The notes under the pieces were generated by a model. It was given only the letters and a program-made list of their open reading frames with translations. It was not told where the DNA came from and did no database searches. DNA of 45,652 nucleotides from a virus. Positions 16,214 to 33,501 of the stretch are shown here, piece by piece. The DNA lies in the IMG/VR virus record IMGVR_UViG_3300034108_000189, positions 1-45,652 of that record; one strand, written 5' to 3'. The stretch's first letter is position 1, and each line of letters begins with the position of its first letter. A program made the position numbers and the translations under genes.

Positions 16214-19200
16214 CTATACACAACTTCTTTGTACACTTAATGTCCAAGTAAGTTTTACTTGAAAATCTGGATCTGAAGCAGAAGAACCTGTAACATTATG
16301 ACCTACTGTCATAAATGTATCACATGCATCATAAGCATCAGATAATGGAACTTCTAAAGTATAACAAACATATTGATCAGTTATACTAAAACCTGTTGAA
16401 CCATTAGCTAAAGATGTTTGTGGAAATACATTAGTAATAGGATTCCATGTACTACATTGAATGTACCCAATATAATACTCAATAGCAGTTGGCGGATCTA
16501 CTGTATAGTTATTTTGAATCCATGCCATTCCACATAGTGTAACAACATCACCAGATTGTAAATCATGAGGAAGAGCAATTCCACAATTAAGATTTTGAGT
16601 AAGAATTGGGTCTGTTCTTTCTCTACTAACTGTACTAACAACATTTAAGTCACAACCATTCCATCCACAATCTGCCTCACCAATATAATATTTACCAGAT
16701 CCTAAGTTTGTATCATCTGTATATGAAGTAGAGTTTGAAGCAATTATCCAGTTTTCAACAGTACAACCTCCACCTCCACCACCGGAAGGACCTTGAACAC
16801 CCTGAGTTCCTTGAGTACCAGTACCAATAATACCTTGAATACCTTGCGCACCAGTACTACCCGTAGCACCTGTGGTTCCTTGTGCTCCTGTTCCACCAGT
16901 AGCACCGGTTGCTCCTTGAGCTCCAGTTGCTCCTTGATTTCCTTGTGGTCCAGTAGATCCAACAATACCTTGAATACCCTGTGCTCCAGTAGACCCAGTA
17001 CTTCCCACAATACCTTGTATACCTTGAGCTCCGGTTGATCCTACTGATCCCTGTGATCCTGTAGTACCCTGACTTCCAGTTCCTCCAGTTGCACCTGTTG
17101 TTCCTTGTGTACCCTGAGCTCCTGTATTACCTGTAGTTCCTGTAGTACCTTGTCTACCCTGGATTCCTTGAATACCCTGTAAACCTGTTGCACCAGTAGC
17201 TCCTTGTGCACCGGTACCTCCAGTTCCACCAACAGCACCTTGAGTACCAGTGGTTCCTTGATTACCAGTTGCACCAATTGCTCCTTGACTACCAATAACA
17301 CCTTGAGAACCTGTACTACCAATAGCTCCCTGAGCTCCTGTTGCACCTGTCGTACCTTGAGAGCCTACAGTTCCTTGAGCTCCTGTAGCTCCGGTTGTTC
17401 CTTGTGAGCCTGTTGCTCCTACAGTACCCTGAGTTCCAGTGGTACCCTGTGAACCAGTACTTCCTATTGCACCTTGTGCACCCGTAGCTCCTGTTGGTCC
17501 TGTATTACCTACAATACCCTGGATACCTTGAGAACCTGTGGCACCGGTTGAACCTGTGGTTCCTTGTGCACCTGTATTTCCAACAAAGCCTTGAATACCT
17601 TGACTTCCTGTTGCACCAGTTGCACCCGTAGTACCTTGACTACCTACAGCTCCTTGCGCTCCAGTAGATCCAGTTGTACCAACAGCACCCTGTGCTCCAA
17701 TTGCACCTTGTGCTCCTGTGTTACCAGTTGCTCCAGTACTGCCTTGTGAACCAATTGCACCTTGTGTACCAGTACTACCTGTAGAGCCTTGTGAGCCCGT
17801 AGCACCAATAGCACCCTGTGTTCCAGTAACACCTTGTCGGCCTTGTATACCTTGAATACCTTGTAATCCAGTAGCACCAGTATTACCTGTAATACCTTGT
17901 ATACCTTGTGTTCCTTGTGACCCAGTGGCACCAGTCGCTCCAGTTGTACCTTGACTTCCAGTTGTTCCCTGAGAACCAGTAGAACCAGTTGAACCCTGAC
18001 TACCAGTAGCTCCTGTTGTACCCTGTGTTCCCACAGCTCCTTGAGATCCTGTAGATCCAATTGCTCCTTGGGCACCGGTTGCACCAGTTTGTCCTTGAAG
18101 ACCTGTTAATCCTTGAAGACCTGTTGTACCTTGAGCTCCCGTAGCACCAGTAGTACCTGTAGTTCCTTGAGCCCCGGTAGTGCCTTGACTACCTATAGCA
18201 CCCTGAGAACCGGTTGCTCCAGTTGTTCCTGTAGCTCCTTGAGTTCCAGTGGTACCTTGTGCCCCTGTTGCGCCAGTAGTACCCTGTGATCCAGTTGTTC
18301 CCTGAGCTCCGGTATTTCCTGTAGCACCAGTAGATCCTTGAGAACCTGTTGTTCCTTGAGATCCTGTACTACCAGTACTTCCTTGTGATCCAGTTGCTCC
18401 GGTTGTACCTTGTGCACCAACAGGGCCTATTACACCTTGAGTACCTTGAGTACCAGTTACACCTTGAATTCCTAATGTTCCTTGTACACCTTGGATACCT
18501 AAAGTTCCTTGAGTTCCTTGAGCTCCAGTTAAACCTGTAGTACCTTGTGTGCCGGTAGTACCTTGAGATCCTGTTGAACCAGTAGCACCTTGACTTCCTG
18601 TATTACCAGTAGTTCCTTGACTACCTACTGCGCCTTGTGTTCCTGTTGCACCAGTACTTCCCTGCGCGCCTGTAGCACCTGTGGTACCTTGGCTACCAGT
18701 TAATCCTTGTAAACCTGTTGCACCCGTTGTTCCAGTTGTCCCTTGTGTACCAGTGGTACCCTGAGTTCCGGTTGTCCCTTGGGCTCCAGTAGTTCCTTGT
18801 GCTCCAGTATTACCTAAAGTTCCTTGGATTCCTTGAATACCTTGAAGTCCTGTTGTACCTGTAGTCCCTTGTGAACCAGTTGTGCCTTGGGCTCCAGTCG
18901 CGCCAGTGGTGCCCTGTGAGCCAGTAGCTCCGGTAGAACCTTGAGAACCTATAGCTCCTTGGCTACCAGTAGAACCTGTACTACCCTGAGATCCAGTAGC
19001 ACCAACAGTACCTTGTAATCCTATTACACCCTGTATACCTTGAATACCTAATAATCCTTGAATACCCTGTGTACCAGTAGTTCCTTGGGATCCAGTTATA
19101 CCTTGAGTCCCTTGTGCACCAATAGCACCTTCACGTCCTTGAATACCCTGTACTCCTTGTAATCCTGTAGTTCCTTGCGCACCTGTTGCCCCAGTAGTTC

Positions 19201-22200
19201 CTTGAGAACCAGTAGCACCTACAGTGCCTTGTGCACCTACGGTACCTTGGGCTCCAGTACTTCCGGTAGCTCCTTGTGACCCAGTTAAACCAGTTGTTCC
19301 TTGTGAACCTACAGCACCCTGAGTACCTGTTGTTCCTGTTGAACCTTGAGATCCTGTGGCTCCTGTAGTACCTTGAGAACCGGTAGTTCCCTGAACTCCA
19401 TTAGTACCCTGTGTACCAGTTAAACCTTGTAATCCTTGTATTCCTTGTAAACCCTGTAAACCTACAGCACCTTGTGTACCTATTGCTCCCTGAGTTCCTG
19501 TAATTCCTTGAGAACCAGTAGTTCCTTGAGGCCCATATGCATATAATGCAGCATCTAACCAAGTACCAGTTCCTGCTCCATTAATATCTTGAGAAGTTGG
19601 ATTACCTGTAAATGCAGTTAATTCAATATAATCAGTAGTACCATTGAAATAAAGAATAGTATTAATTGACTGGAAATAACCAATTGTTGTATTTGCAATT
19701 GGATTTTGAGCAATTGCTACTTGTGTAGAACCATTTTTTCTTAATTGTATATTGTTCTGATCATTATTGACTGATCCTGCATTCCACCATACTTGAGCAT
19801 TAACTAAATAATATCCTGCTGTAGTAGGTTTAAATTGATTTGATGTAAACCAGTTATTAGGATCAAAATCATCAACTAAAGTTACTACGGTATCAGTACC
19901 ATTTGGTATGGTTTGAGCTGTTCCATTTTTAACAGCTTTACCTACATAAGATCCTGGTGTTAATAAACCACCATCAAATCCTTGAATACCTTGTATTCCC
20001 TGAGTACCTTGAGTTCCCTGAGATCCAGTAGTTCCGGTGGTTCCTTGACTTCCTGTTGTACCTTGGCTACCTGTACTACCAGTTGATCCTTGGCTTCCTG
20101 TAGCACCTATAGTACCTTGCGTACCAATTTGCCCTTGAGTACCTTGAATACCTAATAGACCTTGGATTCCTTGAGTTCCTTGCACACCTTGTAATCCAGT
20201 TGTACCTTGAATTCCTTGAATTCCCTGTGTACCAACTAAACCTTGAATACCTTGGATACCAGTTATACCTTGTAGTCCTTGGATTCCAGTTGTTCCTTGT
20301 ACCCCTTGTGGACCTGTTACATTACCAACATCATCCCATTCAGTACCATCCCAAACCCATAAATGTCCAGTATCAGTAGTAATATAACCATCACCAATAT
20401 TTCCTGTGTATGAGTTAGGCCATCCAGGTAATGATGTTGAGGTACTCACACTACCGATAATAGTAATTGAGTTACCTGATGTACCTTGAGAACCTAATTG
20501 TCCTTGCACACCTTGTATGCCTTGAATACCTTGTAAACCTTGAGTACCAGTTGTACCTTGAACACCTGTTTGTCCTTGAATACCTGTAGTACCTTGCACA
20601 CCTTGAACTCCAAGTATACCTTGGGTACCCTGTGCACCAGTATTACCGGTTGTCCCTTGTGTTCCTTGAGATCCATTTAATCCAGATGTACCTTGTGAAC
20701 CAGTTGAACCCTGTGATCCTGTAGATCCAGTGCTACCTTGTGATCCAGTAACACCTGTTGTTCCCTGATTACCAATAGTTCCCTGAGCACCAATAGTTCC
20801 TTGTGTTCCAACTTGACCTTGAACACCAACTTGACCTTGTACTCCAAGTTGTCCTTGTATACCTTGAGTACCCTGAACTCCCTGTACACCAAGAGTACCT
20901 TGTACTCCTTGAATACCTTGAGTTCCAACTGTACCCTGAGCACCAATAGTACCTTGATTACCCAATGTTCCTTGAATACCTTGAGAGCCTGTTGCTCCTT
21001 GTAAACCAATTAAACCTTGAGAACCAGTAGATCCTGTGGTACCTTGAGAACCTGTATCACCAGTAATACCTTGCAATCCTGTACTTCCTTGTGCTCCCGT
21101 ACTTCCTGTAGAACCTTGGCTTCCAGTATTTCCTGTTGTACCCTGTACGCCAATTTGACCTTGAACACCTTGAATACCTTGAACTCCCTGAGGCCCAAAT
21201 GTTCCCTGTGTTCCTTGAGTACCTAAAGCACCTTGGGTACCAGTAGCACCTTGTGGACCAAGTTGAGTATAAGTAACTTGGAATGTATTAATAATTACAG
21301 AAGGAATTGCAGGATAAGGAGCTGATGCTGGATCATATTCTAATCTAATATTAGTATTATTAACAGCCCATGCAATTTCATAGTAATCTCCGGCATCTAC
21401 TGTAAATATAAAATCTAATGATGATACATTATAAGCAAGATTAGAAGGTACAAGATATTTAGTAGCTGAATCAGCTACGGAAGTTCCATTCTTTTTTAAC
21501 CAAACATCAACTACATCACCTGAACCCCCTCCACCAGTATAATGGAACTGAACTGAAAAATTAAAAGCATATGTACCTGCAGCTGAATATGTTACTTGAG
21601 TACCTCCTACAACAGATACTCCATTAGAGTAAGAAGTTGTATTGACAGTCATTATATATTCTGTATTGATAGCTGCAGCAGTTTGATCAACTGTAGAATA
21701 CCATGAACCATAATACGCTACAGTACCTCCAGCACCTGTTGTACCGGTAAGACCTTGTACTCCCTGTATACCCTGAAGTCCTAAAGATCCCTGTATACCT
21801 TGAACTCCTTGTGTTCCAGTTAGACCTGTAACACCTTGTAAACCAATAGATCCTTGCGCGCCTGTACTACCAATTGCACCCTGACTTCCGGTATTTCCAG
21901 TTGCACCTTGACTTCCTTCTAGACCTTGTGCTCCTATACCGCCTTGTAAGCCAACAGAACCTTGTGTACCAGTAGTACCTTGACTACCAGTAATTCCTTG
22001 AATTCCTTGGCTACCTTGAACTCCAATAGGACCAATTTGTCCTTGAACTCCTTGCGTTCCTTGAGAACCTAAGATACCTTGTGTACCAGTTTCTCCCTGT
22101 ACACCTACATTTCCTTGAATACCTTGACTACCAGTTGAGCCTTGTGTTCCAGTTATACCCTGACTACCTGTTGATCCAGTTGTTCCTTGACTACCTGTAT

Positions 22201-23896
22201 CTCCAGTTAAACCTTGTAAGCCAACCGCACCCTGAGACCCTGTACTTCCTGTAGATCCTTGAGAACCTGTATTACCAAGTGTTCCTTGTGTACCTTGTAA
22301 ACCAATACTTCCTTGAATACCTTCAGTTCCTTGAGTCCCAATTGCACCCTGGCTACCAGTTGTACCTTGTACACCAAGAGATCCTTGGGTTCCTTGTGCA
22401 CCTTGAGTACCTGTAAATCCAGTAGAACCCTGTGTACCTGTTGTACCCTGACTACCGGTAGAACCTGTAGAACCTTGACTGCCGGTGTTACCAGTAGAAC
22501 CTTGGCTACCAACAGAACCTTGTAATCCTTCTAAACCTTGTAAACCTGTATTTCCTTGTACACCAATAGAACCTTGAGTACCTAAGATACCTTGAGTTCC
22601 TTGGGAACCTACTGTTCCCTGTACACCTTGTTGTCCTAATGTGCCTTGAACTCCCTGGATTCCTTGTGTTCCAGTAGAACCTTGCAAACCAGTTGATCCT
22701 TGTGCACCATCATTACCTGTAGTTCCCTGTGGACCAGAAGTACCCTGAACACCTTGAGAACCAAGAGCTCCCTGTGAACCTGTAGTACCAGTTGATCCCT
22801 GCGTACCTACTGTACCTTGTGAACCTGTGCTACCAGTACTACCCTGAGAACCAGTGTTACCAGTAGTTCCTTGAATGCCCTGAGTACCTATACTACCTTG
22901 TGTTCCTGATGAACCTTGTGTACCATCTGTTCCTTGAGATCCTGTGGTACCTTGTACTCCTAATGAGCCTTGAATACCCTGTGAACCTTGTAAACCTGTA
23001 AATCCTGTTGATCCTTGTGTACCAACAGCACCTTGTGAGCCAGTAGATCCTGTAGATCCCTGACTACCAGTATTTCCTACAGTACCCTGTGGACCGATTA
23101 CACCTTGCAATCCTATGATACCCTGAGTACCAATTTGCCCTTGGGTTCCTGTAGTACCCTGTTGTCCTAAACTTCCTTGGACACCTTGAGTTCCTATTTG
23201 ACCTTGAATTCCCTGAATACCTTGAGCTCCAAGGTCACCTCTCTCACCTTGTATTCCTTGAGATCCCTGAAGACCTGTAATACCTTGTGAACCAGTATTT
23301 CCAGTTGTTCCTTGTGGTCCTGTAGTTCCTTGTACACCCTGAGATCCTAATGCACCTTGAGAACCAGTAGTTCCGGTTTGTCCTTGAGCACCAATTCCTC
23401 CTTGTGCTCCTGTAGAACCTACGGCTCCTTGAGAACCAGTGTCTCCCTTAAGACCTTGAGCACCAACCGTACCTTGAGCACCGGTTGATCCAATAGCACC
23501 TTGAGATCCTGTTACACCAATTTGTCCTTGTGCACCAGTTAAACCTTGTATGCCTTGAATCCCAGTAGAACCTTGACTTCCGCGGATACCTTGAATACCT
23601 TGGCTTCCTACAGCTCCACCACCATCTACCCAGTTTACTATATCTTGTAAACTTTGAGATACTGTTGAATCTGTAGCAATAACTGTTTGGGATCCAGCTG
23701 TAATATTTGCACCTGTATATATTACGCAATCTGCATTGGTTACTTCTGCACACTGTTCTTCTTCAGGACAAGCATCAGGAGTAGGACAAGCTGGTGGAGT
23801 TGTTAAACCAGTTGTACACACAGCACATTTCCCACAATTATTACAACCTGTGTTAGTAAAAATACTTTCTAACTGACCGGATCTTTTAGGTATCAT
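16214..23896 (-). CDS. Giant collagen-like tail fibre / appendage protein
   Basis: A 2560-residue protein. Residues 1-95 form a head with eight cysteines (C18, C21, C24, C27, C37, C43, C49, C57) and a virion-type segment ([13 protein letters not shown]). The remainder is almost uninterrupted Gly-X-Y collagen triplets, broken by three folded inserts: a C1q/TNF-like jelly roll at about 720-880, a short tryptophan-rich module at about 1139-1195 ([16 protein letters not shown]), and a second C1q-like domain at about 1307-1455 ([15 protein letters not shown]). A glycine run (about 2370) leads to a C-terminal cysteine-rich domain. The Y position is nearly always Q or T and proline is rare. Collagen-like phage fibres form trimers; this is probably a host-binding fibre or a head appendage. 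The gene ends 46 bases before the propeller-FkbM gene. Confidence 0.85.
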
Positions 23897-28050: not shown

Positions 28051-28683
28051 TTATTCTGTATCATAGAACATTCTGTCAGAATCTTCTGTATGCCACTTAT
28101 CAAATCCTTCGCAATTATAACTATCTGTATTGACTAGATAATCTGGTTTCTCTGGAAAAGGTTTAGTAACAAAGCTAGGCTCAGACCATTTAATTCTGTT
28201 ATTAGGTTGCAACGCTATCTGTCCGTTATCAAGTAAAATGATATGATGGCTTTTATGCTCTAGTGGATCTTCTGCTAATGATAAGTCTGTATTTAAATCA
28301 TTGGCTCCCCAGTTAATGGTAGCATAGTAACTACCAGGATAGAACTTGTGATCCTTCATGTATACTTCAACTTTTGTATCATACACGTAAGACAAATGCA
28401 GTAAAGTAAAGTTATAAGAGAAACAGTTCCATATCTGCAAGAAGTGAAATGGTAGATCTGTGTCCGGTAGCTTAGGTTCATGCAGTAAAGCATGGGATGG
28501 TAACTTGTCCCGCATAACTCCATTCTCCAAGAGTACTTGAAATAATGCTGCTTGTCCCGGCATACACCTTACTGACATTATAACCCCCGGGGTCAATTCT
28601 CCATGACCTTTCTTATGTTGGTACATGTACTCATTTCTAACAAATACCTTAAGGGGAAAAAAGTTGTGTTCTATATATGCCAT
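28051..28683 (-). CDS. Conserved phage hypothetical protein
   Basis: A 210-residue soluble protein rich in aromatic residues and histidine. Segments such as SVRCMPGQAALFQVLLENGV and LPSHALLHEP, and a final DRMFYDTE, are distinctive but not linked to a named family here. It is the first gene of the minus-strand arm, starting at 28683 on the edge of the divergent G/C-rich region. Its expression is probably controlled from there. Confidence 0.6.
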   Translation of the reverse strand: MAYIEHNFFPLKVFVRNEYMYQHKKGHGELTPGVIMSVRCMPGQAALFQVLLENGVMRDKLPSHALLHEPKLPDTDLPFHFLQIWNCFSYNFTLLHLSYVYDTKVEVYMKDHKFYPGSYYATINWGANDLNTDLSLAEDPLEHKSHHIILLDNGQIALQPNNRIKWSEPSFVTKPFPEKPDYLVNTDSYNCEGFDKWHTEDSDRMFYDTE

Positions 28684-28898
28684 ATGTAAATTATTATAAG
28701 ACTACCCAGGGGTAAACGAATGAAGAATAAACCCCCCGGGCAATCTGTTTCATCTGTAGCATGGTAAAGGTAGAAAGTCTGAAGGAAATATACAACTACG
28801 GGGAGGGGTTTTTTACCATACAAGAGTATGTGGTGGGGCATTGCTACAACACCCCCCGGCCCCTGGCGGAGAGGTGGCCACCCCCCTTTGTTTCAGAG
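28684..28898. promoter_or_regulatory. G/C-rich, hairpin-rich divergent control region
   Basis: No convincing gene lies here. It contains a CCCAGGGG/CCCCCCGGG hairpin (about 28705-28740), a CATAC-AAGA-GTATG hairpin (about 28819-28832), G runs (GGGGAGGGG near 28801) opposed by C runs (CCCCCCGGCCCC near 28852), and the perfect palindrome GGTGGCCACC near 28873. It separates the two oppositely transcribed arms. It could hold promoters for the minus arm, a bidirectional terminator, a structured RNA or an origin. Confidence 0.4.
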
Positions 28899-28914
28899 AA
28901 CATCTTACTACACA
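28899..28914 (+). promoter_or_regulatory. Array element 1, AACATCTTACTACACA
   Basis: The most divergent copy (C at position 10 and ACACA at the end). It lies 41 bases before the start codon at 28940 and is the first plus-oriented signal after the switch region. Confidence 0.6.
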
Positions 28915-28939
28915 GGTTACTAACACTAAATTTTTTACC

Positions 28940-29137
28940 ATGGAAAAAGTTTTTCACCCAGACTGCAGCTGCGGTCAACCTGTACTGTATCATATTGATC
29001 AGATACCTGTGTTTGAGAACAATGTTCTGATTGCTATGCAACCAGGTGATGTATGGTTTCACACAAGGTGTGAAGATTGTGATTATGCCATCCTTGTTGC
29101 TAATTCACCAGAAGAAGAAGATGAGTTGCCCTTTTAG
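28940..29137 (+). CDS. Small zinc-finger-like protein
   Basis: A 65-residue protein beginning MEKVFHPDCSCGQPVLYH. Cysteines in CSCG and later CEDC, with histidines at FHP and WFHTRCEDC, could bind one zinc. The ending EEEDELPF is acidic. The ATG at 28940 is chosen because element 1 lies just before it; longer upstream frames would cross the element. The TAG stop is in the loop of the terminator hairpin. Confidence 0.62.
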   Translation: MEKVFHPDCSCGQPVLYHIDQIPVFENNVLIAMQPGDVWFHTRCEDCDYAILVANSPEEEDELPF

Positions 29138-29152
29138 GGCATCTCATTTTTC
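29121..29152 (+). terminator. Terminator overlapping the stop codon
   Basis: ATGAGTTGCCC, loop TTTTA, GGGCATCTCAT (11-bp stem, one mismatch), then TTTTTC. The TAG stop (29135-29137) straddles the loop and the 3' arm. Confidence 0.68.
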
Positions 29153-29155
29153 TTG

Positions 29156-29171
29156 AACATCTTTTTACTTA
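29156..29171 (+). promoter_or_regulatory. Array element 2, AACATCTTTTTACTTA
   Basis: 33 bases before the start codon at 29189 and 9 bases after the previous hairpin. Confidence 0.72.
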
Positions 29172-29188
29172 ATCTTAAATTATATATT

Positions 29189-29359
29189 ATGAAGATTAAG
29201 AAAGGAATGAAGTTAGTATTTAATAATAGAAGTGAAGTTATTATTAAAGGAAGTAATGATAGAGTTAATGGTATGATTGTTACTGATGGTAATGAATATA
29301 GTGTTGATTTTATTATGAGATGGTTAGAGTTTGGTTTTGTTAAATTAGAAGGGGGTTAA
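29189..29359 (+). CDS. Small hypothetical protein, 56 residues
   Basis: Starts MKIKKGMKLVFNNRSEVIIK; probably a small beta-barrel-like fold with a C-terminal helix (FIMRWLEFGFVKLEGG). An upstream in-frame ATG at 29153 lies before element 2 and cannot be transcribed from it, so the start at 29189 is preferred. It resembles short KOW- or SH3-like phage proteins in overall pattern only. Confidence 0.55.
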   Translation: MKIKKGMKLVFNNRSEVIIKGSNDRVNGMIVTDGNEYSVDFIMRWLEFGFVKLEGG

Positions 29360-29369
29360 TACCCCTTTT
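29349..29369 (+). terminator. Terminator with stop codon in the loop
   Basis: AAGGGGGT, loop TAAT, ACCCCTTTT: an 8-bp stem with a T tail. The TAA stop (29357-29359) is the loop itself. Confidence 0.68.
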
Positions 29370-29373
29370 CTAA

Positions 29374-29389
29374 AACATCTTATTACTCT
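29374..29389 (+). promoter_or_regulatory. Array element 3, AACATCTTATTACTCT
   Basis: 32 bases before the start codon at 29406. Confidence 0.7.
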
Positions 29390-29405
29390 ATCTAAACTAA
29401 CACTT

Positions 29406-29606
29406 ATGAAAACACTTAAACAAGTGCAATACTGTGCTATTGCCATTATTTCTTTAGTATTCTTTGAGGCTATGCTAACTATGGGTACTGTATTCCGCTT
29501 TGAGGATTACAACTGGTTTGCCTGGTTTATGCAGTCTGTAGCATTTGCATTTGCAATAACTACAGCCTTGAGAGTAGAACATGAAACAAGTAAGGAGGGT
29601 CAATGA
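29406..29606 (+). CDS. Two-pass membrane protein
   Basis: A 66-residue protein with helices at about residues 9-28 (CAIAIISLVFFEAMLTMGTV) and 38-56 (FAWFMQSVAFAFAITTAL), and a charged end (RVEHETSKEGQ). Early membrane proteins of phages often alter host membranes or block other phages; none is identified here. Confidence 0.55.
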   Translation: MKTLKQVQYCAIAIISLVFFEAMLTMGTVFRFEDYNWFAWFMQSVAFAFAITTALRVEHETSKEGQ

Positions 29607-29615
29607 TCCTCTTTA
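29592..29615 (+). terminator. Terminator with stop codon in the loop
   Basis: AAGGAGGGT, loop CAATG, ATCCTCTTT: a 9-bp stem including two G-T pairs. The TGA stop (29604-29606) spans the loop and the start of the 3' arm. Confidence 0.6.
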
Positions 29616-29622
29616 CTTATTG

Positions 29623-29638
29623 AACATCTTTTTACTTA
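29623..29638 (+). promoter_or_regulatory. Array element 4, AACATCTTTTTACTTA
   Basis: 32 bases before the start codon at 29655. Confidence 0.72.
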
Positions 29639-29654
29639 TCTTAAAACTAATAAC

Positions 29655-29891
29655 ATGGAAAAGAGAAATGCATTATTTGTAGTAACCTATTTTGCTATAG
29701 GTTTATTTGGTGGTTGGTTATTAGGAGCTATGACTTCTAATGATAGACCAAGAGCACAGAATATTAAGGCTGAATATTATCTTGAGTTAAAGAAAGATGG
29801 TTCTGCTGTATTAGAAGACATTGGCGGCAATACTTATCATTGCCCAAAGCTAGAAGACATTGCTTCTGTGTTAGAAAGAGACAACCTGTAA
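29655..29891 (+). CDS. Membrane-anchored small protein
   Basis: A 78-residue protein with one N-terminal membrane helix (residues 7-26, LFVVTYFAIGLFGGWLLGAM) and a soluble domain of about 45 residues (EYYLELKKDGSAVLEDIGGN). The function is unknown; the topology suggests the soluble part faces the periplasm or is tethered to the inner membrane. Confidence 0.55.
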   Translation: MEKRNALFVVTYFAIGLFGGWLLGAMTSNDRPRAQNIKAEYYLELKKDGSAVLEDIGGNTYHCPKLEDIASVLERDNL

Positions 29892-29906
29892 TGGGTTGTC
29901 TTTTAC
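29880..29906 (+). terminator. Terminator with stop codon in the loop
   Basis: GACAACC, loop TGTAATG, GGTTGTC, then TTTTAC: a perfect 7-bp stem. The TAA stop (29889-29891) lies in the loop. Confidence 0.66.
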
Positions 29907-29913
29907 ACACAAG

Positions 29914-29929
29914 AACATCTTATTACTTA
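29914..29929 (+). promoter_or_regulatory. Array element 5, AACATCTTATTACTTA
   Basis: Begins 20 bases before the first base (29934) of the 11-bp closing stem of the structured RNA candidate; no start codon of a credible gene follows. Confidence 0.7.
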
Positions 29930-29933
29930 TATT

Positions 29934-30035
29934 GATATAACAAGGAATGTTTCCAGGGGGAGCAGGGCCAGCCGTGGCTACTGCTTAATATACCTACGAG
30001 AGGAATCCTATGGGGAACACTTGTTATATCTTTTT
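29934..30035 (+). ncRNA. Candidate structured small RNA 1, about 102 nt
   Basis: The sequence begins GATATAACAAG and ends CTTGTTATATC followed by TTTTT, a perfect 11-bp closing helix with a terminator-like U tail. Inside it, GTTTCC can pair with GGGAAC, continuing the helix after short interior loops. AGCAG...CTGCT encloses GCCA-GCCG-TGGC, and further pairing is possible near CCTACGAGAGG. No credible gene fits: the only ATG frame gives 13 codons. It occupies a full cassette of its own between elements 5 and 6. No known RNA family is recognised. It may bind a host or phage protein or act as a decoy or antisense RNA. Confidence 0.66.
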
Positions 30036-30042
30036 ATATAAT

Positions 30043-30058
30043 AACATCTTATTACATA
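30043..30058 (+). promoter_or_regulatory. Array element 6, AACATCTTATTACATA
   Basis: 38 bases before the start codon at 30081 and 8 bases after the U tail of RNA 1. Confidence 0.7.
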
Positions 30059-30080
30059 AGATAACTTAAAACCAACAATT

Positions 30081-30284
30081 ATGATTACAGCATTTTTATT
30101 AGAAGGTAGAACAGCAAGTCTACTTGAAGAACTAAACGGCATCTTCATCCTTGCAAGAGGAGAAGGATTAGACAACACAGAAGTTGAGGACTTATTGCTC
30201 CTGCACACTGATGACTTAGAGCATTATGTTGTGCAGTGCAGAAGAGATGAAGAAGTTGGTTTAGTGCAGTTAGGGGGACAATAG
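30081..30284 (+). CDS. Small acidic protein, 67 residues
   Basis: Begins MITAFLLEGRTASLLEELNG and is leucine- and acid-rich (VEDLLLLHTDDLEHYVV), probably two or three amphipathic helices. No family is recognised. The stop TAG lies in the terminator loop. Confidence 0.55.
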   Translation: MITAFLLEGRTASLLEELNGIFILARGEGLDNTEVEDLLLLHTDDLEHYVVQCRRDEEVGLVQLGGQ

Positions 30285-30300
30285 TTCCCCTTTATTTTTT
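30273..30300 (+). terminator. Terminator with stop codon in the loop
   Basis: GGGGGAC, loop AATA, GTTCCCC, then TTTATTTTTT: a 7-bp stem with one G-T pair. The TAG stop (30282-30284) spans the loop and 3' arm. Confidence 0.68.
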
Positions 30301-30316
30301 AACATCTTATTACTCA
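30301..30316 (+). promoter_or_regulatory. Array element 7, AACATCTTATTACTCA
   Basis: Begins 20 bases before the GATAT at 30321 that opens the second RNA candidate, the same spacing as element 5 to RNA 1. Confidence 0.7.
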
Positions 30317-30320
30317 ATCT

Positions 30321-30416
30321 GATATTGAGGTAAAGTGGTAGTCCCATCCACATTTAAAGCTGGGCATAGTTAGGTAGTACACTTATATCATTAGGGGGCT
30401 TAGGCTCCCTTTTTTC
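30321..30416 (+). ncRNA. Candidate structured small RNA 2, about 96 nt
   Basis: No ATG occurs in this cassette. GATAT at the 5' end pairs with ATATC at 30385-30389, and AAGTG (30333-30337) pairs with CACTT (30380-30384), with a 7-base bulge between. Alternative pairings GTGG/CCAC and CCCA/TGGG share bases with this and may give two conformations. The cassette ends in a strong terminator, AGGGGGC-TTAG-GCTCCCT with a T run. Like RNA 1, it begins with GATAT 20 bases after its promoter-like element. No known family is recognised. Confidence 0.58.
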
Positions 30417-30420
30417 TTTT
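30393..30420 (+). terminator. Terminator of RNA 2 cassette
   Basis: AGGGGGC, loop TTAG, GCTCCCT (7 bp, one G-T), then TTTTTTC. Confidence 0.72.
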
Positions 30421-30423
30421 TTT

Positions 30424-30439
30424 AACATCTTTTTACTTA
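30424..30439 (+). promoter_or_regulatory. Array element 8, AACATCTTTTTACTTA
   Basis: 46 bases before the start codon at 30470. Confidence 0.72.
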
Positions 30440-30469
30440 ACCTGTATTAATCCCTTAAATTATTTTATT

Positions 30470-30865
30470 ATGAAAAGTTCAGAGAAATTGAAAGCCTACA
30501 AGCAATCACAAGCAGATTACAATGATGCAAGTGCTGTGATTGATGGAATCCGCAAGCAAAGTAGTGAGATCCGTGACATTAGTGTCAGTTCTAACTTGGT
30601 CATTGACAGAGCTTCAACAGAGAGACAGTTCTTGTTTGCTCTTGGCATCTTGTCTCAGCAGATTACAAGTTGTCCACTACTGAATCTTCCTGATGCGGAG
30701 TATATAGAGAAACGTGATAAGATCACTGCTCTATGGAAACTTATGCAGGAAGAAAAGGCTTGGGTTCAGTATGCTAGTGAACTGCGTAGGTATACCTATG
30801 AGCTGGAAGACTTGCTTGATAGTGATGACAAGTTTCAGCTGTTGGAATATCCGAAGAAGAAATAG
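30470..30865 (+). CDS. Helical hypothetical protein, 131 residues
   Basis: Begins MKSSEKLKAYKQSQADYNDA and is helical and charged throughout, with an IRKQSSEIRDISVSS stretch and a C-terminal tyrosine/leucine-rich helix (YTYELEDLLDSDDKF). Codon use is richer in G/C than the neighbouring cassettes. The function is unknown. Confidence 0.58.
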   Translation: MKSSEKLKAYKQSQADYNDASAVIDGIRKQSSEIRDISVSSNLVIDRASTERQFLFALGILSQQITSCPLLNLPDAEYIEKRDKITALWKLMQEEKAWVQYASELRRYTYELEDLLDSDDKFQLLEYPKKK

Positions 30866-30896
30866 GGAAAGGGAGCTTCGGCTCCTTCCCTTTTTA
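30865..30896 (+). terminator. UUCG-capped terminator
   Basis: GGGAA and GGAGC (AG bulge between), loop TTCG, GCTCC and TTCCC, then TTTTTA. The TAG stop ends at the first base of the 5' arm. Confidence 0.75.
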
Positions 30897-30900
30897 TTTG

Positions 30901-30916
30901 AACATCTTATAACTTA
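30901..30916 (+). promoter_or_regulatory. Array element 9, AACATCTTATAACTTA
   Basis: 31 bases before the start codon at 30932. Confidence 0.68.
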
Positions 30917-30931
30917 AACATAAACTATACT

Positions 30932-31129
30932 ATGGACACAGAAACTGTATTTAAAGTTATTACTATGCTTGATGCAAGAATAGGAATATGTGAGGGATTA
31001 CTCAATGGAACAATTGATGAAGACTTTGACATAGCTTACGTATGTGGTGAACAAAATGCTCTCACAGATTTAAGAGATCACTTGCAAGGGTATATTGAGC
31101 TACAAGTAGCACAAGTAGAAGGGACCTAG
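30932..31129 (+). CDS. Small acidic helical protein, 65 residues
   Basis: Begins MDTETVFKVITMLDARIGIC and is rich in D and E with an amphipathic C-terminal helix (ALTDLRDHLQGYIELQVAQV). No family is recognised. Stop TAG in the loop of the next hairpin. Confidence 0.55.
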   Translation: MDTETVFKVITMLDARIGICEGLLNGTIDEDFDIAYVCGEQNALTDLRDHLQGYIELQVAQVEGT

Positions 31130-31140
31130 TCCCTTTTACT
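31118..31140 (+). terminator. Palindromic terminator with stop codon in the loop
   Basis: AAGGGAC, loop CTA, GTCCCTT, then TTAC. The perfect stem encloses the TAG stop (31127-31129). Confidence 0.65.
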
Positions 31141-31143
31141 TAT

Positions 31144-31159
31144 AACATCTTTTTACTTA
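31144..31159 (+). promoter_or_regulatory. Array element 10, AACATCTTTTTACTTA
   Basis: 30 bases before the start codon at 31174. Confidence 0.72.
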
Positions 31160-31173
31160 AACTAAACTAAACT

Positions 31174-31314
31174 ATGGAAGAGGTACAAATACAGCTCACA
31201 TGGGATGAGCTACAAGTGGTGTTAGCTGCAGTTAGGCATGTCAAGAACCAAGTGGACAGTGACAAGCTTGACACAGCATATGTGAAATTAAGCACAAAGT
31301 ATAAGGGGGTATAA
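31174..31314 (+). CDS. Small hypothetical protein, 46 residues
   Basis: The frame from the ATG at 31174 to the TAA at 31314 encodes MEEVQIQLTWDELQVVLAAV onward to LSTKYKGV. It begins with ATGG 30 bases after element 10, like its neighbours. It is probably two short helices. The function is unknown. Confidence 0.55.
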   Translation: MEEVQIQLTWDELQVVLAAVRHVKNQVDSDKLDTAYVKLSTKYKGV

Positions 31315-31323
31315 TGCCCTCTT
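31302..31323 (+). terminator. Weak hairpin with stop codon in the loop
   Basis: AAGGGGG, loop TATAATG, CCCTCTT: 7 bp with one G-T. The TAA stop (31312-31314) is in the loop. The T tail is poor; a second small hairpin (TGCCTGCGGCA) follows at about 31331. Confidence 0.5.
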
Positions 31324-31350
31324 ATTCTTCTGCCTGCGGCACCTTTTAAT

Positions 31351-31366
31351 AACATCTTATTACATA
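31351..31366 (+). promoter_or_regulatory. Array element 11, AACATCTTATTACATA
   Basis: 52 bases before the start codon at 31403, a longer leader that contains TATTGTTTAACC, also found after element 12. Confidence 0.68.
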
Positions 31367-31402
31367 GATAGTATATTGTTTAACCCTTTAATTCTTTTTA
31401 TT

Positions 31403-31753
31403 ATGTCAGATTTCTCTGAAACTCGTTCTTTAGTTGCTTATATGCAAGCAGTACAGTCTCCTAACCTTAACATTGTCAAGGGCAAGGAAAAGACAAACCC
31501 TAAAACTGGGGAGCTCTACACACCACGTTATGTGCAGTTCCTCAAGCCTGATGGTGGTGTTCTTGGTACTGCTATGCTTGCAAGCAAGATTGAAAACATT
31601 ACTGCGGCAAATGCACGTGACTTGGACGTGTCGTGGGTAGAGGGTGTAACCGAGGGAGGTTCACCTGTAAAAGGCTATATGGTACACGGACGTAGCACTG
31701 CTGAGGTTATCAGCACGTTCAGTGTTGCAGACTTGGCTACTATTGGTGCCTAG
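31403..31753 (+). CDS. Small conserved phage protein, tandem paralogue 1
   Basis: A 116-residue protein beginning MSDFSETRSLVAYMQAVQSP. It is soluble, with VSWVEGVTEGGSPVKGYMVH and a final STFSVADLATIGA. The next gene encodes a clear relative sharing SALDF/SLVAY-like starts, NLNI, MLxSK, VSWVEG, VKGY and STFSVADxATI. The sense codons are relatively G/C-rich, suggesting high expression. Function unknown; the small size and early promoter suggest a host-takeover or nucleic-acid-binding role. Confidence 0.62.
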   Translation: MSDFSETRSLVAYMQAVQSPNLNIVKGKEKTNPKTGELYTPRYVQFLKPDGGVLGTAMLASKIENITAANARDLDVSWVEGVTEGGSPVKGYMVHGRSTAEVISTFSVADLATIGA

Positions 31754-31760
31754 TGAAACA

Positions 31761-31790
31761 GAGTGCGGAGAAATCCGTACTCTTTTTTTT
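31761..31790 (+). terminator. GAAA-capped terminator
   Basis: GAGTGCGGA, loop GAAA, TCCGTACTC (9 bp with one G-T), then eight T residues. Confidence 0.78.
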
Positions 31791-31810
31791 CTGGCTGCGC
31801 CACCTTAGTT

Positions 31811-31826
31811 AACATCTTTTTACCTA
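31811..31826 (+). promoter_or_regulatory. Array element 12, AACATCTTTTTACCTA
   Basis: 53 bases before the start codon at 31864; the last copy in the window. Confidence 0.68.
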
Positions 31827-31863
31827 CTATGTATTATTGTTTAACCTTTAAAAAACACAAAAC

Positions 31864-32184
31864 ATGAACAACAATTCTGTAGAGTTTATTGAAACTAAGT
31901 CTGCTCTTGACTTTATGAAGAGCATTGGGGCCACTAATCTTAACATCCAGCAGGGTGATAAGAAAGTCCCATATATAGGCTTCAATAACAGTAGCAAGAC
32001 AACTGCTATGTTGTCAAGTAAAGTAACTGCGGTAACTGCCCATAACATTCACGAATTACAGGTGAGTTGGGTAGAAGGTACCAATGAAAACGGTAAAGCT
32101 GTGAAAGGCTATTTACTACACCGTGTTGGTAAGCCTGCTGAGATCCTATCCACGTTCAGTGTGGCGGATATGGCTACCATTTAA
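31864..32184 (+). CDS. Small conserved phage protein, tandem paralogue 2
   Basis: A 106-residue relative of the preceding gene product. Shared blocks include NLNIxxGxK, MLSSKVTAVTA (MLASKIENITA in the first copy), VSWVEGTNENGKAVKGYLLH and STFSVADMATI. The two genes each have their own promoter element and terminator, so the whole cassette seems to have been duplicated. Confidence 0.62.
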   Translation: MNNNSVEFIETKSALDFMKSIGATNLNIQQGDKKVPYIGFNNSSKTTAMLSSKVTAVTAHNIHELQVSWVEGTNENGKAVKGYLLHRVGKPAEILSTFSVADMATI

Positions 32185-32191
32185 GGTACAT

Positions 32192-32220
32192 AAGGGAGTG
32201 TTCTTAGGAGCATTCCCTTT
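32192..32220 (+). terminator. Hairpin terminator
   Basis: AAGGGAGTG, 10-base loop, CATTCCCTTT with a short T tail, directly after the second paralogue. Confidence 0.62.
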
Positions 32221-32225
32221 ATCTT

Positions 32226-32314
32226 TCTCTATATATAGGGAGATGAGACTTAACGGTCTGTTATCTCTCTATATATATAGAGAAGAGAGACTCTTGTGTG
32301 TGGGAGAACCACAC
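32226..32314 (+). other. Long stable hairpin and second stem, no gene
   Basis: TATATATAGGGAGAT (32230-32244) pairs with ATCTCTCTATATATA (32263-32277) as a 15-bp stem with one G-T, and AGAC/GTCT extends it inside with loop TTAACG. A second hairpin, GTGTGG-GAGAA-CCACAC, follows at 32298-32314. No gene fits in 32185-32402. It may be a processing or stability element, or part of an untranslated RNA. Confidence 0.5.
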
Positions 32315-32402
32315 TTCATGATAATACAGCTCTTGAAACATGAGTAAATTCAGTAGTTTCTACTACAGATATAGTAATATATAGCTAAACATAAGCACAT
32401 AC

Positions 32403-32603
32403 ATGAGTAACATACTACATGTATTACTATTAGCTCTATATATATTAGTCTTATTACTATATATACTATTCCTATATAAAGGAACAGAGTATAAGACTCC
32501 GGAATTGTATTTATTCACCCCTAATTATATTTACTATGCATTTAGTTATTGCAAACATTATGTTTGTTCTACAACTACATTCAGGTGTTATTATACCTAC
32601 TGA
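32403..32603 (+). CDS. Small membrane protein
   Basis: A 66-residue frame beginning MSNILHVLLLALYILVLLLY, a strong single membrane helix, then TEYKTPELYLFTPN. The last third overlaps the next gene by 68 bases and looks less protein-like, so the end is less certain than the start. Confidence 0.45.
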   Translation: MSNILHVLLLALYILVLLLYILFLYKGTEYKTPELYLFTPNYIYYAFSYCKHYVCSTTTFRCYYTY

Positions 32604-32757
32604 TGATGTTGATGGTAGAACTATATATTCTATTCCTTCTGCAGGAATAGAGTATGCTTACAAAGCAGAGATTGTCCAGTATCTTGAAACTGGAGTATTT
32701 ATGTATGATGAAACTATAGATGATCCGGTTGATCCATCTATGTTTAAAAACAAATAG
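32536..32757 (+). CDS. Hypothetical protein, 73 residues
   Basis: Begins MHLVIANIMFVLQLHSGVII with a hydrophobic start, then an acidic soluble part (YSIPSAGIEYAYKAEIVQYL, DETIDDPVDPSMF). The next gene starts 3 bases after its stop. The overlap with the gene before is unusual; a start further inside cannot be excluded. Confidence 0.5.
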   Translation: MHLVIANIMFVLQLHSGVIIPTDDVDGRTIYSIPSAGIEYAYKAEIVQYLETGVFMYDETIDDPVDPSMFKNK

Positions 32758-32760
32758 GCT

Positions 32761-32946
32761 ATGATGTTTGAAGATGCAAGAGATATGTTTATGTTATACA
32801 GCATATCTCCGGAATTAACCTGCACTTGTGATGAGTTTCATGAGTGCCAACAGTGCTATGAAGAAAGGCAATCAGCCAGCCGTAATAGCAAGAAGATGAC
32901 CTATGGTACTTCTTATGACATGAGTACTGATAGTTTTACTGATTAA
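32761..32946 (+). CDS. Small cysteine-motif protein, 61 residues
   Basis: Begins MMFEDARDMFMLYSISPELT. CTCDEFHECQQC holds four cysteines and a histidine spaced for a possible zinc site. The C-terminal part is serine/threonine-rich. No family is recognised. It begins 3 bases after the preceding stop. Confidence 0.5.
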   Translation: MMFEDARDMFMLYSISPELTCTCDEFHECQQCYEERQSASRNSKKMTYGTSYDMSTDSFTD

Positions 32947-32949
32947 AAC

Positions 32950-33219
32950 ATGTATATGAAAAAGTCAAGGAAAGCAGAGATTCAGAAATTAGAGAGAGAA
33001 TTGTATTCATTACAATGGGAGAAAGCAGATGTATATGCATCTAAAATAGACCCAGATATGAAGGCAATCTATCTTAATGACATTGACTACAAGGCATATT
33101 GTATTCAACAAAAGATTGAAGATATAGAACATGAGGAGGGTATGTTCCCGCTTAAGCTTATGCTGGCATGTTTTGTTATCTTTGCACTTGTATTGGTTAT
33201 TTATAGAATAAGCCATTAA
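32950..33219 (+). CDS. Coiled-coil protein with C-terminal membrane helix
   Basis: An 89-residue protein beginning MYMKKSRKAEIQKLERELYS; an N-terminal charged coiled coil (to about residue 60) is followed by a tail anchor (PLKLMLACFVIFALVLVIY). It is a tail-anchored inner-membrane type. The function is unknown. Confidence 0.55.
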   Translation: MYMKKSRKAEIQKLERELYSLQWEKADVYASKIDPDMKAIYLNDIDYKAYCIQQKIEDIEHEEGMFPLKLMLACFVIFALVLVIYRISH

Positions 33220-33226
33220 CAAGAAT

Positions 33227-33300
33227 GGTTTCATAGCTCAATTGGATAGAGCAACACACTTCTAATGTGTAGGTTTCTGGTTCGAGTCCAGATGGAATCA
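33227..33300 (+). tRNA. tRNA-Arg (anticodon UCU)
   Basis: A full 74-nt cloverleaf. Acceptor GGTTTCA pairs with TGGAATC (two G-T pairs). The D arm is AGCTCAATTGGATAGAGC. The anticodon stem ACACA/TGTGT encloses CTTCTAA with anticodon TCT, reading AGA. The T arm TCTGG-TTCGAGT-CCAGA is canonical and the discriminator base is A. The 3' CCA is not encoded. AGA is very common in this AT-rich genome, so the tRNA probably supports phage codon use. It is followed by a terminator. Confidence 0.93.
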
Positions 33301-33303
33301 CTA

Positions 33304-33332
33304 AGCCTCTGATTACTCAGGGGCTTTTTTGT
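33304..33332 (+). terminator. Terminator after tRNA
   Basis: AGCCTCTGA, loop TTAC, TCAGGGGCT (9 bp, one G-T pair), then TTTTTTG. Confidence 0.82.
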
Positions 33333-33351
33333 TACACTTAAAATTTTACTT

Positions 33352-33501
33352 ATGAAAAAACTTATTTTATTGATTACAGTATTTACTGTATTAGTGTCTT
33401 GTAAGAGTACAAAGTATTCTTCAGCTGATTGTTATAAAACACAATACAAGCCACTTAAAGCTGAAAAGCATAAGCACGTACAATGTGATGCATATAATTA
33501 A
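33352..33501 (+). CDS. Small lipoprotein, 49 residues
   Basis: The frame 33352-33501 encodes MKKLILLITVFTVLVSCKST and then a short basic tail ending in QCDAYN. The basic start, hydrophobic core and LVSC lipobox are a clear signal-peptidase-II signal, so the mature protein would be a lipid-anchored peptide of about 32 residues. Such phage lipoproteins may block superinfection or injection, or act in lysis; the position far from the lysis module favours the former as inference. Confidence 0.66.
   Translation: MKKLILLITVFTVLVSCKSTKYSSADCYKTQYKPLKAEKHKHVQCDAYN

Follow-up and report, generated by a model that had tools for sequence, protein, structure and literature searches.

The early promoters of the jumbo phages phiKZ and AR9, which are read by a multisubunit virion RNA polymerase (RNAP), consist of a short, conserved A/T-rich block near −10 that differs from phage to phage (PMC7598289). 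In P23-45, whose virion RNAP (vRNAP) is tail-tape-fused, an A/T-rich motif lies upstream of the pre-early starts; vRNAP-bearing relatives retain this motif, and those that lack the enzyme lack it too (PMC10770324). The vRNAP promoters of coliphage N4 are conserved from −17 to +1 and form hairpins, and the compact promoters of T7-like phages combine a binding block (−17 to −5) with an initiation block (−4 to +6) (PMC4496689). The late motif of AR9 reads AACA-N6-TA/G, with AACA at −11 and the start at the last base of TA/G (PMC5312081, PMC9209446). Our literature search, which covered largely open papers without the phi14:2 structure paper and is therefore weak evidence of novelty, found no promoter for a crAss-like virion RNAP; the word promoter is absent from the accessible part of PMC7886860. 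Here we analyze a stretch of viral DNA (IMG/VR record IMGVR_UViG_3300034108_000189, positions 1 to 45,652; this whole stretch of 45,652 nucleotides is called the window) in which a 21-nt element is repeated 12 times at the heads of small cassettes. We estimate a probability of roughly 0.83 that this element serves the phage's own virion RNAP as its early promoter. Comparison with relatives strongly supports the promoter reading: the sites are probable early promoters of a crAss-like virion RNAP whose specificity has changed from relative to relative. It also supports the original prediction, made from the window alone, of a single-block, non-host promoter read by a phage RNA polymerase.

The 21-nt element forms a one-strand array

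The 8-mer core of the element, AACATCTT, is present in every copy and occurs exactly 12 times within 28899–31818, on the plus strand throughout, confirming the 12 copies in 2.9 kb first reported. The longer motif AACATCTTWTTACNTA is matched exactly by eight of the 12 copies, with one mismatch in those at 30301 and 30901 and two in those at 28899 and 29374. Across the whole window, AACATCTT was observed 17 times against 4.0 expected, a count reached in none of 100 shuffles. The remaining five copies lie inside listed open reading frames (ORFs), at 5349 and 9374 on the plus strand and, on the minus strand, ending at 82, 16411 and 39094; the statement that no copy exists elsewhere in the window thus holds for the long motif and not for the 8-mer.

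The copies are mostly placed between the terminator of one cassette and the next gene. A terminator-like hairpin lies at most 45 nt upstream of 10 of the 12 copies (0.14 at random places) and an ATG ORF 10–75 nt downstream of 10 (0.27 at random places). A single copy falls inside a same-strand ATG ORF of at least 50 aa (1/12, against 0.65 at random), namely that at 28899, within a mechanical 89-aa ORF (28761–29030). Terminator-like sites number 16 in 28600–33400, where 2.7 are expected. Ten cassettes hold one small ORF each, none of which matched PHROG or Pfam better than E 0.01, and the two headed by the copies at 29914 and 30301 hold a short non-coding RNA and no ORF; the proposed arrangement of one gene per promoter has to be widened to take in these two RNA-only cassettes. 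The array starts at the junction with a minus-strand module, a place that suggests that the cassette genes are early.

Along its full length, the window aligns with a section of the longer contig G002 (117,768 bp) at 99.99% identity. We scanned both strands of this contig with a 21-nt matrix trained on 27 sites from the relatives G004 and L126, the window being excluded from training. The 12 array sites occupied ranks 1–12 (19.3–28.7 bits), and rank 13, antisense in the portal gene, scored 12.9 bits, 6 bits lower and below the 13.5 bits reached in the reversed-sequence control. At such strength the motif is therefore confined to the early array of the contig.

A predicted start at position 21

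To compare sites we used a promoter frame in which AC is set at positions 12–13. In this frame, a T at position 20 followed by a purine at position 21 (T20-R21) occurs in 103 of 139 distinct sites when all ten motif classes are included. Without classes E and H, which were set apart only after the result was seen, the figure is 101/118, whereas other offsets give about 0.21. Type III sites were held out when the rule was derived, and among them T20-R21 was found in 28/39 (p 1e-11), with every regex match kept in a search covering 16 loci. In the window, nine of the 12 sites conform.

The two non-coding RNAs provide an independent view of the same position. nc1 (29934–30035, plus strand) is bounded by a closing stem that pairs 29934–29944 with 30020–30030 and is followed by a T run, and nc2 (30321–30416, plus strand) ends in a terminator at 30393–30410. 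Homologues occur behind other motifs, those of nc1 in L171, L174, L176, L177 and L191 and those of nc2 in L137 and G016. A shared GATAT begins at position 21 in both RNAs of the window and in L137, G016 and L191, behind differing motifs; L171 and L174 also have G at position 21, with one additional base after it. We place the predicted start at position 21, 20 nt past the first motif base and 5 nt past the end of the 16-mer. The earlier estimate of a start about 20 bases after the motif would hold if counted from the motif's first base and not from the end of the 16-mer.

Sequence comparison indicates that nc1 is a structured RNA conserved among phages. A 27-mer in which 25 bases are fixed recurs in 24 stretches of viral contigs (14 distinct sequences; L171, L191 and L500–L522), with no match in genome_contigs, and four pairs vary on both sides, the best being UA 7 / AU 7 and CG 11 / UA 3; bases within the 27-mer are fixed by the choice of sequences. 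No Rfam family matched nc1. Within nc1 lies CUACGAGAGGA, which may resemble the sarcin-ricin loop of 23S rRNA. Homologues of nc2 (L137:3601–3710; L103:4153–4053, minus strand) are kept in distant relatives behind other motifs. A third RNA, nc3 (L019:2825–2974; L194:968–1088; L181:4965–5054), forms an RNA-only cassette of G004 and has relatives in two other arrays, behind other motifs; their shared part starts well inside, and nc3 therefore says nothing about the start.

Lineage-specific motifs and concerted change among relatives

The motif search in relatives that had been proposed as a check found 11 copies in G004 and 16 in L126, with partly different cassettes within the same frame. One cassette is missing from G004, the gap running precisely from one promoter to the next, a loss that homologous recombination between copies would explain. 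When 28 TerL-relative records were scanned with AACATCTTNNTA, 11 gave one or two matches and none an array. We took relatives via A1, a conserved protein near the array (best 80 of 505 loci), and ran a de novo motif scan on 55 regions, namely L129 and the 54 of these 80 loci that had 6 kb or more of upstream sequence; many of the regions are near-duplicates. Of these regions, 33 were scored, 13 had fewer than five terminators and nine gave no motif. Among the 33 scored, all except L160 and L173 (31) exceeded the best of three random draws; the random draws yielded no motif at all in five loci, and L175 passed narrowly (83 vs 80). No clear motif emerged from the best repeated words of G054.

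In the early regions of many relatives, one-strand arrays are built on a lineage-specific motif; these motifs include AACAGCTCA, AACTGTG, CACCTTG, TACTTCTT, GACTTTTTT, TACARCTT, ACAACTTTATAA, AATCTTTAATAA and CTA[AG]CCC, and the natural site variants include AACATCTT, TAACTGTG and TCACCTTG. Among the loci listed, scans with TCACCTTGNNNTACTANT and TAACTGTGNNNTACTANT gave several matches (seven) in the L175 record alone. Genes are kept behind changing motifs: of the 62 cassette gene families, 22 stand behind at least two motif classes, and these 22 account for 94 of the 143 cassette ORFs. One family stands behind six classes. In these counts, B and B2, as well as C, C' and D, are treated as separate classes.

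A concerted change is seen between L175 and L178, which are 96.4% alike across 12.2 kb of alignment. Nine L175 sites read AACT[G/A]TG and nine L178 sites read CACCTTG. In seven orthologous promoter pairs (7/9 L175 sites; two sites per side without a clear orthologue were left out), positions 1, 4 and 5 each differ in 7/7, whereas the other 18 promoter positions are identical in 118/126 comparisons and the next 39 bases in 253/273. Across all sites of the two phages, bases 1 and 4 are fixed (9/9 vs 9/9) and base 5 nearly so (8/9 vs 9/9). A third phage, G047, shares 96% identity with L175 in the RNAP core and has ten sites that read TACTGTG, with base 1 alone changed in all ten; one further G047 site, with the unlike block AACTTTG, lies away from these. 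Without a reader acting in trans, it is difficult to account for identical new bases at so many sites.

A virion RNA polymerase homologue as the likely reader

The TerL of the window has matches in 131 records, most of which are named as uncultured (cr) phages or as Bacteroides, Flavobacterium and Cellulophaga phages, the best places all being below 60% identity, and the portal protein matches crAss001 gp20 (E 4e-20). Outside the window, contig G002 of the same phage encodes a 4070-aa protein with the sequence SGGDFDVDK, which is matched by PHROG 2987 (RNA polymerase beta subunit; E 1e-4). With a profile built from 13 such cores, the virion RNAP of phi14:2 (gp66, PDB 6vr4) is matched at E 9e-34. 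Foldseek likewise matched an AlphaFold model of the RNAP core to 6vr4 (E 1.6e-17), a result we use as support only, since the model is poor (mean pLDDT 59.7). By its TerL, its portal and the giant RNAP with DxDxD, sequence comparison places the window in the crAss-like phages (Crassvirales), in agreement with the earlier suggestion of a crAss-like phage with its own RNA polymerase.

An RNAP homologue was found in 15 of 15 relatives searched, giving RNAP data for 16 genomes and TerL data for 14 (two of the 15 relatives gave no TerL match). The RNAP and TerL trees disagree, and the motif type goes with the RNAP. L175, L182, L174 and L160 have TerL proteins 92–96% alike and RNAPs 35–49% alike, and show four motif types. 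L182 and L180, with TerL 76% alike, share an RNAP clade (54%) and both have motif type II. The type III genomes L160, L186, L201, L197 and L142 form one RNAP clade, their motif type being based on 2, 1, 2, 5 and 3 sites, respectively. In a set of 14 genomes, the distance between motifs is correlated with that between RNAPs (r 0.63, p 0.0001), unchanged with TerL partialled out, as against r −0.03 for TerL and r −0.28 for the near-array protein A1. The link persists when type II is left out (r 0.58, p 0.001) and also when L160 and L186 are dropped (r 0.62, p 0.0006). In G034, about 39 kb lie between the array and the RNAP core; close linkage is therefore not the cause of the correlation.

Alternative explanations

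The leading alternative, which we regard as unlikely, is that the host RNAP reads the promoters with the help of a phage-encoded specificity factor, or that the reader is a distinct subunit of the virion complex, encoded near the RNAP gene. Host promoters of Bacteroidota carry TAnnTTTG at −7 with TTTG at −33. We rejected this type, as the original prediction had, because no TAnnTTTG occurs on the plus strand in 28690–32250. A sigma-70 promoter (TTGACA / TATAAT) was rejected as well, such sites showing no excess in 28600–33400 (11 found vs 18.0 expected). Both results speak against host RNAP, as does the rifampicin-resistant early transcription of phi14:2 by its virion RNAP, stated in a review (PMC10136315). 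In favor of a specificity factor, A/T-rich motifs with such factors are known; for example, the AR9 nvRNAP requires gp226 (PMC9209446). The neighbors of the RNAP gene have also diverged as much as the RNAP itself, and the motif correlation therefore cannot separate them from it.

We consider it very improbable that the repeat is a 5' untranslated RNA element, that is, a translation or stability signal rather than a DNA element. The element does lie 30–53 nt ahead of the ATG in the ten coding cassettes, but two copies head ORF-less RNAs whose homologues, preceded by different motifs, are alike only from position 21 onward. A recombination site for cassette gain or loss, with a secondary or absent promoter role, has next to no probability in our view: close relatives do differ in cassettes within one frame, and G004 lacks one from promoter to promoter, but homologous recombination between promoters explains such shuffling, and a pure recombination site needs neither a start-like base at a fixed distance, nor an RNA start there, nor a link to the RNAP gene.

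Two further known promoter types were compared with the sites and rejected. For the N4 vRNAP promoter, in which an inverted repeat folds into a hairpin with a loop of three bases, five of six sites folded as DNA gave 0 kcal/mol and the sixth −1.2. For the AR9 nvRNAP late promoter, the string AACA-N6-TA is present in class A sites, a likeness by letters only: AACA is missing from most other classes, and the conserved T-purine stands at 20–21 and not at 11–12.

Several observations weigh against a promoter of the virion RNAP. T20-R21 fails in three of the 12 window sites and, in the frame as used, in classes E (0/14) and H (2/7). Eight of the 14 nc1 sequences share the inner core only, and the argument from the 5' boundary therefore rests on array members. 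Some motif consensuses were set by hand, that of L186 from one site read by eye. Within RNAP clade I alone, the largest such clade (8 genomes), the motif-RNAP correlation is not significant (r 0.20, p 0.23). Proteins adjoining the RNAP are also strongly diverged or were not found, and one of them could therefore be the reader. An RNAP scan gave 12 loci, and none of the 10 records then searched has a TCACCTTG array; the RNAP of a TCACCTTG phage was not found in this way, and the clearest switch is thus left without its polymerase pair. Finally, the same scan of the early regions of phi14:2 and crAss001, where the virion RNAP has been studied, returned only A/T-rich or coding repeats and no such array.

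Proposed mechanism and implications

We nevertheless favor early promoters of the virion RNAP. The array, the fixed spacing, the conservation of the start base, the 5' boundary of two RNAs, the concerted change and the correlation with the polymerase gene are all present in the sequences compared. We propose a 21-bp site in which a recognition block of 8 bp (here AACATCTT) is combined with a spacer rich in A/T, AC at 12–13, T20 and a starting purine at 21. Each site would give one short transcript, carrying a small protein gene or a small RNA and closed by its own terminator. We infer that the sites are transcribed, that the RNA starts at position 21 and that the block is read by the polymerase rather than by a linked subunit. 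By analogy with phi14:2 and crAss001, the polymerase would enter the cell along with the DNA and make these RNAs first, and the array would be the first region expressed in infection (PMC10136315, PMC8375218).

In relatives, all copies of the block would have been rewritten jointly as the polymerase gene was exchanged or altered. It seems to us somewhat more probable than otherwise that in this crAss-like lineage the virion RNAP gene is swapped between phages or shifts its specificity, all early promoters then being rewritten in concert, which would give ten or more promoter-polymerase specificities in one phage group. If true, the group would hold a natural series of polymerase-promoter pairs that are orthogonal to one another, and the mixing of early genes between relatives would meet a barrier. 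The locus offers a testable 21-bp promoter, a predicted start base, a natural variant series and polymerase sequences matching many of the variants. The three-base switch between phages that are 96% alike points to bases that may carry specificity, and the variant series would allow one to ask how a promoter set and its reader change together without loss of function. Such pairs could also supply orthogonal transcription tools for Bacteroidota.

Features of the array and of the remaining window

The early cassette array (28899–32184) comprises 12 putative promoter elements, ten small ORFs and two non-coding RNAs with terminators in between, all on the plus strand. Promoter 1 (28899–28919; predicted start 28919, with T20-R21) precedes an ORF of 65 aa (28940–29137), and promoter 2 (29156–29176), which deviates from T20-R21 by a T at 21, precedes one of 56 aa (29189–29359), both of unknown family. 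Behind promoter 3 (29374–29394; predicted start 29394) lies a 66-aa ORF (29406–29606) whose family relatives also have behind motif classes C, D and I. Promoters 4 (29623–29643; predicted start 29643) and 6 (30043–30063; predicted start 30063) head ORFs of 78 aa (29655–29891) and 67 aa (30081–30284), respectively, both with families also behind classes B and B2. Promoter 5 (29914–29934; predicted start 29934) heads nc1 and promoter 7 (30301–30321; predicted start 30321) heads nc2. The 131-aa ORF (30470–30865) behind promoter 8 (30424–30444; predicted start 30444) belongs to a family also found behind class F. Promoter 9 (30901–30921), which departs from T20-R21, heads the cassette missing in G004, with a 65-aa ORF (30932–31129) whose family also stands behind classes B, C, G and H. 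Promoter 10 (31144–31164; predicted start 31164) is followed by a 46-aa ORF (31174–31314). Promoter 11 (31351–31371), the third site deviating from T20-R21 (A at 20, G at 21), and promoter 12 (31811–31831; predicted start 31831) head ORFs of 116 aa (31403–31753) and 106 aa (31864–32184), respectively, which share a family, found behind six motif classes.

Short GC hairpins, TGCCTGCGGCA and GGCTGCGCC, lie at 31331–31341 and 31793–31801, directly ahead of promoters 11 and 12, and a similar one precedes three G016 promoters. Despite its N4-like appearance, the GC hairpin was rejected as a shared element, being present at just two of the 12 window copies. A tRNA-Arg (TCT) is encoded downstream of the array (33227–33301, plus strand); in the Rfam search, tRNA alone reached gathering level, the other matches being at chance level. 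Elsewhere, the minus strand of the window encodes a collagen-repeat tail-fibre-like protein of 2560 aa (16214–23896) and a 739-aa protein (13948–16167) whose best matches are cyanophage glycosyltransferase or methyltransferase genes (44% identity).

Comparison with known systems

The N4 system shares a virion RNAP with this phage; its sites are hairpins, whereas five of the six sites folded here have none and that of the sixth is weak. T7-like polymerases, different ones of which read different blocks and which are not known to be injected with the DNA, form an unrelated single-subunit enzyme family. P23-45 belongs to another phage family, and the accessible part of its description tells of no specificity series (PMC10770324). 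The nearest likeness is to phi14:2, whose gp66 (PDB 6vr4) is homologous to the polymerase of this phage by the profile match given above. In both phi14:2 and crAss001, early genes lie at the head of one strand's module, as here (PMC10136315, PMC8375218); the difference is the array itself, of which the scan found no counterpart in their early regions. Compared with phiKZ and AR9, the present locus has one site per small cassette and a 16-mer at −20 to −5 of the predicted start, and its close relatives show a concerted change of the block.

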